The position numbers and the translations under genes were made by a program. Shown here piece by piece: positions 5,510 to 63,275 of a stretch of 64,000 nt of DNA (the first letter of the stretch is position 1; each line of letters starts with the position of its first letter). The DNA is from Bradyrhizobium nitroreducens (lineage in GTDB: Bacteria > Pseudomonadota > Alphaproteobacteria > Rhizobiales > Xanthobacteraceae): NCBI RefSeq assembly GCF_002776695.1, contig NZ_LFJC01000003.1, forward strand, positions 6,679,984-6,743,983. The letters are read 5' to 3'. The notes under the pieces were generated by a model. That model saw nothing but the letters and a program-made list of their open reading frames with translations, was not told the origin of the DNA and searched no databases.

Positions 5510-5829
5510 ACTGGATCATTGCCTGCACACGTCAGGATCAATTCTTGGCCCCGGAAGCATCCGTTGGTTTACGGGAACGATGTGGAGGCGAAGTTAGGAA
5601 GCGCGGTTAACGCGATGTGAACGGCCGCGCACAAAGGCAATCGATGCGCGCGCAGAACATGCGCGACGAGACCTGCAGAAGTTGCCGCAGGCGCTGGCCT
5701 TGCCGGTCAATTCCTGCCGGTCGGGTCGCGATCAAGGAGGACTTAACCATCTAAGGTGCTGGCGAGCCTTGCGCGGGCATTGGCACGTGAATTGCGAGCA
5801 CGCCTGTCGGGACACCGAGAGGAAACACG
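5510..5829. other. Divergent intergenic region between GGDEF-EAL gene and flp pilin gene
   Basis: No gene is recognised here. The region must hold promoters for both flanking genes. A GAGAGGA ribosome-binding site precedes the pilin start. No convincing operator or repeat was found. Confidence 0.5.
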
Positions 5830-58644: not shown

Positions 58645-60384
58645 CTAACGCGCGTGCAGCAGCGCCAGCAGCACGACCACCGCGCACGCCAGCGCCGCCG
58701 AAGTCAGCTTCCAGAACATCAGCGGGCTGCGCTCCAAGAGCGGCGTGATCCGGGTGTTGAGATAGGCCGGATTGGGCGAGCGAAGCTCGAAGACGAATTC
58801 TGACAGGTCCTCGTGCCGCTTGTAGGGATCGGGATGCAGCGCGCGCCTGAGCGCACCGTCGACCCAGGCGGGCACGTTGCGGTCATCGCCGGCCGGGCGG
58901 TACTGCAGCCTCCGCACGTCCGCCTTGCGCCGGACCTTCGCGATCTGGGCGCCATAGGGAAGCTTGCCCGTGAGCATCTGGTAGCAGATCACGGCCAGCG
59001 AGAACATGTCGGAGCGTGGCGAGCCGCCTTGCCCGAGAAAGTATTCCGGCGCCGTATACTGGACCGTGCCCAGAATCTCGTCGGCCTCGTCCGGCGGCGC
59101 CGCTTCCGCGACGCCGGCAACCCTGACCGATCCGAAGTCGATGATCTTCGCGGTGCCGGTCTTGTCGATCAGGATGTTGTCGGGCCTGAGGTCCTGATGC
59201 AGCATCTCCATGCGGTGGAAGGCGCGCAGGCCTGCGGCGATCTGCTCGATGAGGCCCCGCACGGTTTCGAGATCCGGGCGCGGATTGTCGGTCATCCACT
59301 GCCTCAAGGTCTGGCCTTCGACGAATTCGGTCGCCACATAGAGATAGCCGCGCCGCCGCGACTGTGACAGCGGCTTCAGAACGTGCGGGCTGTCGATCCG
59401 GCGTGCGATCCACTCCTCCATCAGGAAGCGCTTGAGATAGGCCGCATTGTCGCGCAAATCGACCGATGGCAGCTTGAGCGCGACCGGCTGCTCGGTCTCG
59501 GTGTCGACGGCAAGATAGATGTGACTGCGGCTGCTGCCGTGGATCTCGCGGACGATCCGGTAGCCGTCGAACAGCGCCCGCGGCTCCGGCAGCGGGGGAA
59601 GCGGCAACTCCGAGGTCTGGTTGAAGATGCCGGCCGGCTCGCGCTGCGGCACCGCGTCGATGCGAATGATCTGGACGGTGATGTTGTCGTCGCTGCCGCG
59701 CCGGTAGGCTTCCTCGACGATCGCCTTTGCCGCCCCGTCGAGCTCGGCGGCATGCTCGGTCAGCGCGCCGGTGATGAAACGCGCGTCGACGAACTCATAG
59801 GCCCCGTCGGTCGCCAGCAGGAAGGTGTCGCCGGCTTCGACCTCGAATGCCTGGTAGTCGATCTCGAGCTGCGGGTTGATGCCGAGCGCGCGGCCGAGAT
59901 AGGTCTGCTCGGACGAGACGATGATGCGGTGATCGTCGGTCAGCTGCTCCAGCGCCTTGCCCGCGACGCGGTAGATGCGGCAGTCGCCGACATGGAAGAC
60001 GTGCGCGGTGGTCGCCTTGATGACCATGGCGCTGAGGGTACAGACATAGCCCTTGTCGCGGTCATAGGCATATTGGCTCTTGCGCGTCTGCGCATGAAGC
60101 CAGGAATTGGTGGCATCCAGCACGCGGCGGGCGGAGGTCTTCACCGTCCAGGATTCCGACGTGCAGTAGTAATCCATCAGGAAGCTCTTGACCGCCGACT
60201 CGCTGGCGATCTGGCTCACGCTGCTAGAGGAGATGCCGTCGGCAAGGACCGCGGCGATGCCTTTCAGGCCGAGCAGCGGCTCCTCGGGAATGAGGACGCC
60301 GTGAAAGTCCTGGTTGACGGGCTTGCGACCCTTGTCGGAGTGCTGGCCGACCGAAATCAGAAGTCCGCGGGTCATCGTCATCAC
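58645..60384 (-). CDS. Fusion of PP2C phosphatase and Ser/Thr protein kinase, membrane-anchored
   Basis: The 579-residue protein has a PP2C domain (about 10-245) with the metal-binding segments NQDFHG, LADGIS, HVGDCRIY and GSDDNITV, then a eukaryotic-like kinase domain (about 275-535) with the ATP Lys (VALKLPS), HQDLRPDNILID in place of the usual HRDLKPEN loop, and DFG (IIDFGS). A C-terminal membrane helix follows. Fusions of this kind are known near nitrate assimilation genes in other proteobacteria, including Pseudomonas aeruginosa. It may tune nitrogen uptake, but targets are unknown. It lies 56 bases after the FocA/NirC gene on the same strand. Confidence 0.93.
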   Translation of the reverse strand: MMTMTRGLLISVGQHSDKGRKPVNQDFHGVLIPEEPLLGLKGIAAVLADGISSSSVSQIASESAVKSFLMDYYCTSESWTVKTSARRVLDATNSWLHAQTRKSQYAYDRDKGYVCTLSAMVIKATTAHVFHVGDCRIYRVAGKALEQLTDDHRIIVSSEQTYLGRALGINPQLEIDYQAFEVEAGDTFLLATDGAYEFVDARFITGALTEHAAELDGAAKAIVEEAYRRGSDDNITVQIIRIDAVPQREPAGIFNQTSELPLPPLPEPRALFDGYRIVREIHGSSRSHIYLAVDTETEQPVALKLPSVDLRDNAAYLKRFLMEEWIARRIDSPHVLKPLSQSRRRGYLYVATEFVEGQTLRQWMTDNPRPDLETVRGLIEQIAAGLRAFHRMEMLHQDLRPDNILIDKTGTAKIIDFGSVRVAGVAEAAPPDEADEILGTVQYTAPEYFLGQGGSPRSDMFSLAVICYQMLTGKLPYGAQIAKVRRKADVRRLQYRPAGDDRNVPAWVDGALRRALHPDPYKRHEDLSEFVFELRSPNPAYLNTRITPLLERSPLMFWKLTSAALACAVVVLLALLHAR

Positions 60385-60440: not shown

Positions 60441-61280
60441 TCAGGCGACGACGCGGGGCTTCGCGGCCTTGTCGACCTGGCGCTTCGGCAGGGTCATGAC
60501 GTGCGTGGCGTAGAGCGTCATGCCGGTGAAGGCGAGGCCGCCGACGAGGTTGCCGAGCACGGTCGGGATCTCGTTCCAGATCAGATAATCCATGATCGAG
60601 AACTTTGCGTGCAGCATCAGGCCCGACGGGAACAGGAACATGTTCACGACGGAATGCTCGAACACCATGTAGAAGAACACCAGGATCGGCATCCACATCG
60701 CGATGACCTTGCCCGGGACGGAGGTCGAGATCATGGCGCCGACGACGCCGGTCGAGACCATCCAATTGCAGAGCATTCCGCGCATGAACAGCGTCGCCAT
60801 GCCAGCCGCACCATGCGCGGCATAACCGAGCGTTCGGCCCTCGCCGATGTTGCCGATCGCGGCGCCGACCTTGTCGGGCGCCTGCGTGAAGCCGAACGTC
60901 GTGACGAAGGCCATCATGAAGGCCACCGTGAAGGCGCCGGCGAAGTTGCCGACGAAGACCAAGCCCCAATTGCGCAGCACGCCGCCGAAGGTGACGCCGG
61001 GACGCTTGTCGATCAAGGCGAGCGGCGAGAGCACGAACACGCCGGTCAGGAGGTCGAAGCCCAGCAAATAGAGCATGACGAAGCCGACCGGGAACAGCAG
61101 CGCGCCGACCAGCGGCTGGCCGGTGTTGACGTTGATCGTGACGGCGAACCAGGCCGCCAGTGCCAGGATGGCGCCGGCCATGTAGGCGCGGATGATGGTA
61201 TCCCGGGTGGACATGAAGATCTTGGACTCGCCTGCATCCACCATCTTGGTGACGAATTCCGAAGGCGCGAGATACGACAT
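60441..61280 (-). CDS. Formate/nitrite transporter (FocA/NirC family)
   Basis: The 279-residue protein has six membrane helices and conserved FNT segments (GFVMLYLLGFDLLTGVFVLS in the N-terminal half, VNMFLFPSGL in the C-terminal half). FNT channels carry formate, nitrite or similar monovalent anions. Divergent nitrate ABC genes suggest nitrite. An AAAGGA site precedes the ATG at 61280. The kinase-phosphatase gene follows. Confidence 0.92.
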   Translation of the reverse strand: MSYLAPSEFVTKMVDAGESKIFMSTRDTIIRAYMAGAILALAAWFAVTINVNTGQPLVGALLFPVGFVMLYLLGFDLLTGVFVLSPLALIDKRPGVTFGGVLRNWGLVFVGNFAGAFTVAFMMAFVTTFGFTQAPDKVGAAIGNIGEGRTLGYAAHGAAGMATLFMRGMLCNWMVSTGVVGAMISTSVPGKVIAMWMPILVFFYMVFEHSVVNMFLFPSGLMLHAKFSIMDYLIWNEIPTVLGNLVGGLAFTGMTLYATHVMTLPKRQVDKAAKPRVVA

Positions 61281-61454: not shown

Positions 61455-61493
61455 GGTTTGCAGCCGCCAGAGGCTGCAATAATGCGGCAAACC
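61455..61493 (-). promoter_or_regulatory. Hairpins in the leader of the FocA/NirC gene with two alternative pairings
   Basis: On the minus strand the GCAGCC arm (61477-61472) pairs with GGCTGC (61465-61460) around a six-base TCTGGC loop. Alternatively GGTTTGC (61493-61487) pairs with GCAAACC (61461-61455). The two structures exclude each other. They lie just downstream of the predicted start point near 61509. Confidence 0.5.
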
Positions 61494-61519
61494 GCAGTCT
61501 TCGTTGACGCAGAAGGAAA

Positions 61520-61535
61520 TGCAAGTTGCGTGCCG
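61520..61535 (-). promoter_or_regulatory. Sigma-54 type promoter for the FocA/NirC gene
   Basis: The minus strand reads CGGCACGCAACTTGCA, a near-perfect match to the -24/-12 consensus TGGCACG-N4-TTGCA with correct GG-N10-GC spacing. The start codon is 240 bases downstream, leaving a long leader. Confidence 0.75.
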
Positions 61536-61628
61536 TGGCGGGGAGGCTGAAAGATCAAGCAATATCAATCGGATGGTACCTGCTGCGATCCTGCTTTGGC
61601 GCATCTTGCCGCCTTTTGCTTGAGCGCT

Positions 61629-61663
61629 TGCACAACGTTTGTGCGTCGCACAATTGTTGAGCA
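61629..61663. promoter_or_regulatory. Two NtrC-like binding sites
   Basis: TGCAC-N7-GTGCG at 61629-61645 and CGCAC-N7-GAGCA at 61647-61663 resemble the NtrC consensus TGCAC-N7-GTGCA; the first is one base off. They lie about 70-95 bases upstream of the nrtA start point and 125-150 upstream of the FocA/NirC one, good enhancer positions for both. Confidence 0.55.
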
Positions 61664-61702
61664 GACCGCAAATTCCGCGTGCGGAACGGATCTGCGGTAG
61701 TC

Positions 61703-61718
61703 TGGCGCGATAACCGCA
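61703..61718 (+). promoter_or_regulatory. Sigma-54 type promoter for nrtA
   Basis: TGGCGCGATAACCGCA keeps GG-N10-GC spacing; it departs from the consensus at the TT of the -12 element. Start of transcription would be near 61729. Confidence 0.55.
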
Positions 61719-61728
61719 AGCATTTGAT

Positions 61729-61955
61729 TAATCGTCGTTTTTGACGGAGGCGCGCTTGGCATGAAGCTTGAATGGTTCCAGGCCGACGCCATTGAAGCCG
61801 TCCCGCGAGACTTCTCATCCGATTTGCTGACGCCACCCGAACGGGGGTCTCCCCGTCGCGCGTTCGCATGCGCCCTTTTCGGGCGTCACGGACGGACGGG
61901 CTGCTCGTGCGCACTGACGCAATCATTCGCAACGACGCAAAGGACGACACCGCCT
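61729..61955 (+). promoter_or_regulatory. Long leader of the nrtA gene with hairpins
   Basis: The leader of about 227 bases contains CGTC/GACG with a six-base loop (61734-61747 region), ACGGGG/CCCCGT (61841-61856, loop GTCT) and CGCCC/GGGCG (61871-61885, loop TTTTC). Nitrate genes in related bacteria have NasT-type antitermination in such leaders. A specific ANTAR-binding motif could not be shown here. An in-frame ATG at 61761 lies within the leader but the protein start it would give is not family-like. Confidence 0.45.
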
Positions 61956-63275
61956 ATGACCAAGCGCATTCGCCGGCCCTCCGAGACTGGCCTCAGCCGC
62001 CGTCAATTGTTGAAAGCCGCCGGCTCTACCGCGGCCCTTCTCGCCGCCGCCAAGCTGAATTTCCCCGCCGGCGCCTTCGCGCAGGATGCAGGTCCCGAGG
62101 TCAAGGGCGCCAAGCTCGGTTTCATCGCGCTCTCCGATGCCGGCCCATTGTTCGTCGCCAAGGACAAGGGCCTGTTCGCCAAATACGGCATGCCTGACAC
62201 TGACGTGCAGAAGCAGGCGTCGTGGGGCACCACGCGTGACAACCTCGTGCTCGGCTCGGAAGGCAACGGCATCGACGGCGCGCACATCCTCACCCCGATG
62301 CCGTACCTGATCTCGGCCGGCAAGGTGACGCAGAACAACCAGCCGACGCCGATGTACATTCTGGCGCGGCTCAATCTCGACAGCCAGTGCATCTCCGTCG
62401 CCAATGAATATGCCGACCTCAAGCTCGGCGTCGATGCTTCGCCGTTCAAGGCAGCCCTGGAGAAGAAGAAGGCCTCGGGCAAGGCGGTGAAGGCCGCGAT
62501 GACTTTCCCGGGCGGCACCCACGACCTCTGGATTCGTTATTGGCTCGCCGCCGGCGGCATCGATCCCGACAAGGACATCGAGACCATCGTGGTGCCGCCG
62601 CCGCAGATGGTGGCCAACATGAAGGTCGGCACCATGGACTGCTTCTGCGTCGGCGAGCCATGGAACCTGCAGCTGATCCATCAGAAGATCGGCTATACCG
62701 CGGTCACCACCGGAGAACTCTGGAACAAGCATCCCGAAAAATCCTTCGGCATGCGCGCCGCCTTCGTCGACAAATATCCGAAGGCTGCCAAGGCGCTCCT
62801 GATGGCCGTGATGGAAGCCCAGCAGTGGGCGGACAAGGCCGAGAACAAGGCCGAGCTCGCCGCCATCATGGGCAAGCGACAGTGGATGAACTGCCCGGTC
62901 GAGGACGTGCTCGACCGCACCTCGGGCAAGTTCGATTACGGCATCCCCGGCAAGGTGGTCGAGAACTCGCCGCACGTCATGAAGTACTGGCGCGATCACG
63001 CCTCCTATCCGTTCCAGAGTCACGACCTCTGGTTCCTTACCGAGGACATCCGCTGGGGCAAGTATGAGGCGAACTTCGACACCAAGGCGCTGATCGCCAA
63101 GGTCAACCGCGAAGACATGTGGCGGGATGCGGCCAAGACGCTCGGCGTTGCGGCTGCCGAGATTCCGACCTCGACCTCGCGCGGCAAGGAGACCTTCTTC
63201 GACGGAAAGGTGTTCGATCCCGAAAATCCGGCGGCCTATCTGAAGTCGCTCGCGATCAAGCGCGTCGAAGTCTGA
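61956..63275 (+). CDS. nrtA: Nitrate ABC transporter substrate-binding protein NrtA/CmpA family
   Basis: The 439-residue protein begins with a twin-arginine signal (SRRQLLKAAG) and has the NrtA/CmpA binding fold with KLGFIALSDAGPLFVAKDKG and TMDCFCVGEPWN. It captures nitrate in the periplasm for the NrtB permease encoded downstream. The ATG at 61956 was chosen as it places the Tat signal at the N terminus. A hairpin follows the stop. Confidence 0.93.
   Translation: MTKRIRRPSETGLSRRQLLKAAGSTAALLAAAKLNFPAGAFAQDAGPEVKGAKLGFIALSDAGPLFVAKDKGLFAKYGMPDTDVQKQASWGTTRDNLVLGSEGNGIDGAHILTPMPYLISAGKVTQNNQPTPMYILARLNLDSQCISVANEYADLKLGVDASPFKAALEKKKASGKAVKAAMTFPGGTHDLWIRYWLAAGGIDPDKDIETIVVPPPQMVANMKVGTMDCFCVGEPWNLQLIHQKIGYTAVTTGELWNKHPEKSFGMRAAFVDKYPKAAKALLMAVMEAQQWADKAENKAELAAIMGKRQWMNCPVEDVLDRTSGKFDYGIPGKVVENSPHVMKYWRDHASYPFQSHDLWFLTEDIRWGKYEANFDTKALIAKVNREDMWRDAAKTLGVAAAEIPTSTSRGKETFFDGKVFDPENPAAYLKSLAIKRVEV

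Follow-up and report, generated by a model that had tools for sequence, protein, structure and literature searches.

The window analysed here, a stretch of 64,000 nucleotides from a Bradyrhizobium genome, carries two divergently transcribed transporter genes, together with a third gene that follows the left one:

60441-61280, minus strand: gene for a FocA/NirC-type formate/nitrite transporter (focA/fnt; Pfam Form_Nir_trans, 207.1 bits)
61956-63275, plus strand: nrtA, nitrate ABC transporter binding protein (Pfam NMT1_2, 357.3 bits; start set by the promoter position)
58645-60384, minus strand: PP2C-protein kinase fusion gene, directly after focA

A longer in-frame reading frame would start nrtA at an upstream ATG at 61761, but we rejected this start since it lies inside the predicted nrtA promoter (61756-61772, see below), and therefore took 61956 as the start. 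Downstream of nrtA are nrtB and nrtC, assigned by position and sequence, and some 3 kb further on lie narK, a gene for a NirB-like flavoprotein and one for a molybdopterin oxidoreductase of the nitrate reductase/formate dehydrogenase type.

We searched the DNA of 146 genomes of the genus and obtained matches in 141 of them. Fifty matches span the whole focA-nrtA region, and all 50 were used as the divergent class; their alignment has 51 rows for 50 genomes, as the genome under study was entered twice (L003 and L033). Among the matches listed (more exist in both cases), 39 nrtA loci whose match lacks the focA part form a second class, and 20 focA loci whose match lacks the nrtA part form a third, giving 70 focA loci (50 divergent and 20 third-class) and 89 nrtA loci (50 divergent and 39 without focA). 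The PP2C-protein kinase gene adjoins focA in all 20 third-class loci among the matches listed, which suggests a shared role of the two genes.

The intergenic region contains the following elements:

61520-61535, minus strand: sigma-54 -24/-12 promoter of focA/fnt, CGGCACGCAACTTGCA, 11 of 12 consensus letters
61630-61662 (centre 61646), no strand: tandem NtrC-like palindromes, GCACAACGTTTGTGC-gtc-GCACAATTGTTGAGC, the sole 16/16 tandem in the window
61668-61682, no strand: third, weaker NtrC-like site, GCAAATTCCGCGTGC, mean pairwise identity 0.838 within a spacer of 0.626
61703-61718, plus strand: right-hand -24/-12 element of the preliminary description, 9 of 12 letters, probably no promoter
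61756-61772, plus strand: conserved predicted sigma-54 promoter of nrtA, TTGGCATGAAGCTTGAA, of the form GG-N10-GA, pattern found in 89 of 89 nrtA loci among the matches listed

The preliminary description of this DNA had noted a near-perfect -24/-12 element pointing left to the FocA/NirC gene, and comparison bears this out. In it, a GG at -24 and a GC at -12 are separated by 10 bp in a near-consensus setting, and GG-N10-GC is retained in 70 of the 70 focA loci among the matches listed. It is one of six sites with at least 10 letters and GG together with GC or GA on both strands of the 64-kb window. Another strong sigma-54-like site, TGGCACGTGAATTGCG, with 11 of 12 letters, is located at position 5781 on the plus strand of the window.

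On the right, the pattern TTGGCAY-N5-TTGAA, which carries 9 to 11 consensus letters, is the element shared by all nrtA loci among the matches listed. It has GG at -24 and the 10-bp spacing, with GA instead of GC at -12. This need not disqualify it as a promoter, because TTGA also occupies the -12 position before the glnK-like PII gene (TTGAT in 29 and TTGAC in 1 of the 30 loci returned from 40 genomes, all 40 of which had a match) and before narK, where it reads TTGAA. A dyad over the nrtA -24/-12 element (GGCAC..GTGCC), noticed by eye, is absent from several nrtA loci and was dropped.

With start points predicted from the -12 elements, the leaders can be delimited and have the following features:

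61494-61510, minus strand: focA leader hairpin P1, GCGUC[AACGAA]GAC(U)GC, at the predicted +1 (61509)
61473-61488, minus strand: focA leader hairpin P2, GCCGC[AUUAUU]GCAGC, the usual loop G4 (61480) being A in this genome
61460-61477, minus strand: terminator-like stem GCAGCC[UCUGGC]GGCUGC, mutually exclusive with P2, no U run after it
61785-61802, plus strand: nrtA leader hairpin P1, GACGCC[AUUGAA]GCCGUC, 2 nt past the predicted +1 (61783)
61841-61856, plus strand: GC-rich stem ACGGGG[GUCU]CCCCGU in the nrtA leader, from the alignment; its counterpart in Bradyrhizobium sp. DOA9 was printed as an RpoN site
61929-61938, plus strand: tentative second A1/G4 hexaloop, GC[AACGAC]GC, with a very short stem, abutting the nrtA ribosome-binding site

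The two leaders had been described as twins of about 225 bases; the focA leader, at about 229 nt from 61509, agrees with this length, but the nrtA leader, at about 173 nt from 61783, does not. Each begins with a hairpin whose hexaloop has A at position 1 and G at position 4, the letters given for ANTAR recognition in the portion of PMC3369931 used here. In nrtA, A1 and G4 of the P1 loop are invariant in 89 of 89 loci among the matches listed, with positions 2, 3, 5 and 6 varying and with a search pattern that left G4 free; A1 falls at +8 or +9. In focA, GTC[AAYGAH]GAC was found in 70 of 70 loci among the matches listed, the pattern being written with A1 and G4 fixed so that the count is one of patterns found, and A1 falls at +5 to +12. 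The narK leader has the same first hairpin, with the loop AACGAC.

The focA leader has a second hairpin, P2 (GCCGC[ANNGNN]GCAGC), whose hexaloop has A1 and G4 in 28 of 31 aligned leaders from the 50 of the divergent class; the exceptions are the genome under study, the sole case of G4 loss, and two leaders with loop indels. The 3' arm of P2 is at the same time the 5' arm of the terminator-like stem, in which 96.8% of the cells are paired across the 31 leaders. The two mutually exclusive pairings noted earlier for the left leader are both conserved, and the leader hairpins are real. As predicted from sequence, the focA P1, P2 and GC-rich stem are a two-hairpin ANTAR layout with A1/G4 hexaloops over a terminator-like stem, this genome lacking G4 in P2. 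A long-range anti-P1 helix in the focA leaders reaches nine pairs in a single leader of the 50 in the divergent class, and hence we do not claim it; in third-class loci among the matches listed it has nine pairs in 18 of 20, the changing loop base staying paired (C-G or T-A/T-G).

No clear second ANTAR hairpin was found beside P1 in the nrtA leader, only the distant, very short one at the ribosome-binding site. There, GC[ANNGNN]GC precedes the Shine-Dalgarno sequence in 50 of 50 divergent-class leaders and in 22 of the 39 other nrtA leaders among the matches listed (again counts of a pattern written with A1 and G4 fixed). RNAalifold applied to 48 nrtA leaders returned P1 and two short stems with no compensatory pair, and a competing GCCGUCC/GGACGGC helix was seen in single folds. 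Across the three leader families, two of the six pairs of the P1 stem have both partners changed (14 cells, versus 7.4 ± 1.7 in shuffles), with the inner pair 37-46 unpaired in 15 of 30 rows; the covariation score of the stem is 0.170, and one slid control scored higher (0.218). Covariation is weak overall, absent from most leader tests and limited to one pair in the alignment of the focA terminator-like stem, because the leaders are too conserved. The Rfam scan of both leaders that had been proposed as a check returned no ANTAR or other real match, its two sub-threshold hits (E-values 2.7 and 3) looking like chance. A scan for U-run terminators gave two hits, against 1.6 expected from shuffled sequence; both are plus-strand hits that precede the nrtA start, so that neither leader could use them.

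That the leaders each add a further layer of control, as proposed earlier, is thus supported by comparison: an A1/G4 hexaloop hairpin stands at the predicted 5' end of either transcript. One alternative accepts the sigma-54/NtrC control and has the leader hairpins act on translation or RNA stability instead of antitermination. It would account for the lack of a usable U-run terminator and for the hexaloop abutting the nrtA ribosome-binding site in all 50 divergent-class leaders, but at nosR of B. diazoefficiens NasT acts as an antiterminator (PMC6712156, in the part of that work used here), and the succession of P1, P2 and stem in focA is the antitermination layout depicted in the corresponding portion of PMC3369931. 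We therefore regard this alternative as unlikely and retain antitermination by NasT as the preferred reading of the leaders.

Between the two promoters, the two NtrC-like sites previously placed at 61629-61663 were recovered as a tandem of GCAC-N7-GTGC (61630-61644) and GCAC-N7-GAGC (61648-61662). All 16 core letters are present, and the next best place in the 64-kb window has 14; in 2000 mononucleotide shuffles of the intergenic region, a score of 16 occurred once and of 15 six times. The tandem scores at least 15/16 in 49 of the 51 divergent-class rows (this genome counted twice), and in 37 of 39 nrtA loci and 18 of 20 focA loci of the other classes among the matches listed. The enhancer had been described as one pair, and while the conserved tandem agrees with this, the third, weaker site at 61668-61682, which is as conserved as the pair (0.838 vs 0.832), had been missed. 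A similar block stands before narK, recognised by eye, whose arms form a 33-bp palindrome interrupted only at its centre.

The centre of the pair (61646) lies 112.5 bp from the GG of the focA -24 box and 112.5 bp from that of the corrected nrtA -24 box. In the 50 genomes, the left arm measures 111.9 ± 1.6 bp, with 47 genomes within 1 bp of 112.5 (L013 and L053 are 2 bp off and L029 is 11 bp off), and the right arm 112.5 ± 0.9 bp, with 49 within 1 bp (L044 is 6 bp off); both arms are within 2 bp of 112.5 in 48 of the 50. The two spacers are just 54% and 63% identical across these genomes, and the leaders, at 82-86% identity, vary more in length than the arms (standard deviations of 4.2 and 2.0 versus 1.6 and 0.9). 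The narK promoter of the same genome has the same tandem, likewise at 112.5 bp. In nrtA loci with a tandem score of at least 15 among the matches listed, the arm is 111.5-116.5 bp (24 loci) or 126.5 bp (13). Third-class loci among the matches listed have a focA arm of 133.5-146.5 bp (15) or 167.5-179.5 bp (3), narK-partner arms of 136.5-137.5 bp (10) or 112.5 bp (L089), and, in L090, an arm of 114.5 bp to the nrtA partner. Since the distances differ in these other loci, equal arms of fixed length characterise the divergent focA-nrtA class and not all relatives, and the non-fixed focA arm of the third class counts against a universal rigid geometry.

That one enhancer drives transcription in both directions, as had been suggested, is supported by this comparison, in which a conserved tandem keeps nearly fixed and equal distances to both promoters. 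Alternatively, the promoters could be independent, with the central site serving mainly one gene and the shared layout being a by-product of close packing. Indeed, nrtA keeps its own tandem in the 37 of 39 listed loci mentioned above whose match lacks focA, and therefore sharing is not required for nrtA. However, the near constancy of both distances across diverged spacers in 50 genomes would be hard to reconcile with such independence, as would the fact that focA, where its match lacks nrtA, retains the tandem along with a divergent partner: among the 20 third-class loci listed, this is narK in 11, an nrtA-like paralogue (35-39% identity) in 6 and a diverged nrtA (86%) in 1. In the remaining 2 (L091 and L092), none of the six searched proteins lies opposite focA, and these are also the two loci in which the promoter and P1 are present and the tandem site is absent. 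We thus consider independent promoters distinctly unlikely; in the reading that we prefer, one shared enhancer, the predicted regulatory hub is one that outlives changes of its divergent partner.

As to the protein that would bind the enhancer, NtrC-like or receiver-domain proteins are numerous in this genome (101 matches), so that another enhancer-binding protein, e.g. NtrX, might bind the tandem palindrome in place of NtrC; one of the matches exceeds the NtrC cut-off (747.3 bits versus 558.6). However, the 15-bp GCAC-N7-GTGC is the form of NtrC sites, and the glnK-like gene, a usual NtrC target, has similar single palindromes about 115 and 154 bp before its sigma-54 element. A related consensus is quoted for NtrC (PMC5424462), and the paired palindromes found here lie within the range of distances, about 80-150 bp upstream of the promoter, that is quoted in the part of PMC13207237 used here. 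Binding by a protein other than NtrC is accordingly quite improbable, and we take NtrC as the likely activator.

That nrtA is instead transcribed from the weaker right-hand element at 61703-61718, with a 225-nt leader, is hardly credible: this genome does have GG-N10-GC there with 9 of 12 letters, a score reached by 31 sites of the window having GG with GC or GA (itself included), but no more than 3 of the 50 genomes (4 of 51 rows) combine GG with GC at this place, the consensus there being CTATAA, the site is 58.5 bp from the enhancer centre, and an element with 9 to 11 letters, 54 bp downstream, is found in all 89 nrtA loci among the matches listed. Alignment among Bradyrhizobium genomes, which had been proposed as a check, thus confirmed the left -24/-12 element and the NtrC boxes but not the right box, and we moved the predicted nrtA promoter to the conserved site.

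Published data bear on the same two genes. In Bradyrhizobium sp. DOA9, rpoN mutants have lowered expression of nrtA, nrtB, fnt, nirA and glnK, and RpoN sites are printed for nrtA and fnt, CGGGGGTTCCCCCGT and CGGCAGGCCGCCCGC, at -103 and -74 (PMC13207237, Table 1, in the part of that paper used here). Both lie, at the printed distances, inside the leaders of L028, which we took as DOA9; they are downstream of the conserved -24/-12 elements, and the one for nrtA is the GC-rich leader stem.

The genome under study has NasT, with its ANTAR domain, beside a NasS-like gene, next to which is a gene in the usual place of nirA. A NasT match with an E-value of 1.5e-80 or better was found in 144 of the 146 genomes of the genus; G100 and G096 match less well, and in G045 NasT is in two pieces. 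Since nearly all genomes have it, the distribution of NasT is uninformative on co-loss. A second ANTAR-domain frame (47.9 bits) is located at C1:7456167-7456322 (L094) of the same genome. In B. diazoefficiens, according to the portion of PMC6759348 used here, NasT hairpins are predicted for the leaders of narK, bjgb, nirA and coxS, and among the genes that fall in a nasT mutant only coxS and nirA have clear ones; narK rises in the nasT mutant under denitrifying growth, and is reported to fall under nitrate assimilation in another study cited there. The nrtABC genes of that species are dispensable for growth on nitrate, as stated in the part of PMC4724949 available.

We also searched for the arrangement elsewhere with a covariance model, R1, consisting of the promoter and the first hairpin. 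In this genome, its three strong matches (58.3, 49 and 47.2 bits) are all members of the training set, and the next scores 22.1 bits. Twenty-three of 119 genomes of the family match; the 20 loci read outside the genus, with one further hit giving no locus, lie before focA (5), nrtA (5), nirB-like genes (8) or none of these (2; L186 and L192). The gene nirB is outside the R1 training set, and two of the eight nirB-like genes were confirmed by HMM. A looser script pattern, requiring a sigma-54 element and then an A1/G4 hairpin within 450 bp before focA, was found at 8 of 47 loci outside Bradyrhizobium and at 19 of 32 inside it, while the controls gave no case on the opposite strand, none within coding sequence and 1 in 940 shuffles. 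The eight outside the genus include Azospirillum and Ramlibacter, in which the stem is a different one, AAGCC/GGYYU. R1 missed the hairpins before the focA relatives of Azospirillum, Ramlibacter, Acetobacteraceae and Methylobacterium, where the looser pattern found them; L241, L243, L249, L251 and L255 are such relatives from Acetobacteraceae, Ramlibacter and Azospirillum, with sigma-54 elements followed by A1/G4 hexaloops on different stems. In the genome under study, the gene in the usual place of nirA after nasTS (L124, C1:279764-282818) has a leader with TGGCACGCAACTTGTA and a later hairpin, CAGC[AACGAA]GCUG. R1 scores this gene, with its sigma-54-like element and A1/G4 hairpin, only weakly (E-value 0.92); it may be under the same control, its hairpin lying at a greater distance from +1.

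Taken together, these observations point to one NtrC enhancer, two sigma-54 promoters and NasT control in each leader, a reading to which we assign a probability of roughly 0.8; the identity of the binding proteins (NtrC and NasT), both start points and the termination step we infer from the sequence. According to this reading, phosphorylated NtrC would bind the tandem, together with the third site (61630-61682), under ammonium shortage. From there it would reach sigma-54 polymerase by looping over the same 112 bp in either direction, to the focA promoter on one side and to the relocated nrtA promoter on the other, and an ANTAR hairpin would open each of the two transcripts. NasS, sensing nitrate or nitrite, would free NasT, which would bind the hairpin or hairpins and thereby keep the leader from folding into a transcription-halting stem. 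As NtrC activation and NasT leader control would both be needed, the two genes would require low ammonium as well as nitrate or nitrite, and both transporter genes are thus probably expressed jointly, and only under ammonium scarcity in the presence of nitrate. A more elaborate version, which is tentative and in our judgement rather unlikely as a whole, would make the region a rigid symmetric two-way device, in which a near-palindromic NtrC assembly with 112-bp arms forms one activator complex serving, or alternating between, two transcripts, each exposing a NasT hairpin on leaving the polymerase; in nrtA, NasT might then bridge the 5' hairpin to the second hexaloop at the ribosome-binding site.

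This analysis places the nrtA promoter at a site present in every nrtA locus examined (89/89 among the matches listed), shows that both published DOA9 RpoN sites for nrtA and fnt fall in leaders, and makes nrtA and fnt/focA likely additions to the set of NasT targets. With two arms that are equal and nearly constant across 50 genomes, the locus is a natural system of two promoters, one that would control nitrate/nitrite transport in soil and root-nodule bacteria, in which the range of distances tolerated by a sigma-54 enhancer can be tested directly.

Our literature search recognised no paper describing the arrangement; most subscription journals lay outside its coverage, so that it gives no proof of absence. 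The combination of NtrC/sigma-54 with ANTAR antitermination is already known as a regulatory kind. The Klebsiella nasF operon is under NtrC control, and, as is predicted for the present genes, it combines general nitrogen control of the promoter with control of the leader by nitrate (NasR antitermination), but it is one operon with the sensor NasR, whereas here there would be two divergent units with NasST. The dual-hairpin leaders of EutV, NasR and AmiR, as described in the portion of PMC3369931 used here, share the A1/G4 hexaloops and, in focA, a second hairpin that overlaps an arm of the GC-rich stem; they differ from the present leaders in that P1 here begins within about 10 nt of the predicted sigma-54 start, nrtA has no close second hairpin and no U-run terminator was found in either leader. 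In the RpoN regulon of DOA9, nrtA and fnt likewise have neighbouring locus tags and are both repressed without RpoN, but in the relevant part of PMC13207237 their RpoN sites are printed within the leaders and not at the conserved -24/-12 elements. The NasST regulon of B. diazoefficiens, narK-bjgb-flp-nasC and nirA, involves the same kind of gene cluster (blr2803-09; PMC4724949, in the part available) and the same NasS-NasT pair, but the portion of PMC6759348 used here does not name nrtA or a divergent fnt/focA as having NasT leaders and describes no shared enhancer. What is new in the present locus, as predicted from its sequence, is a shared enhancer at equal, nearly fixed arms combined with a hairpin at each 5' end.
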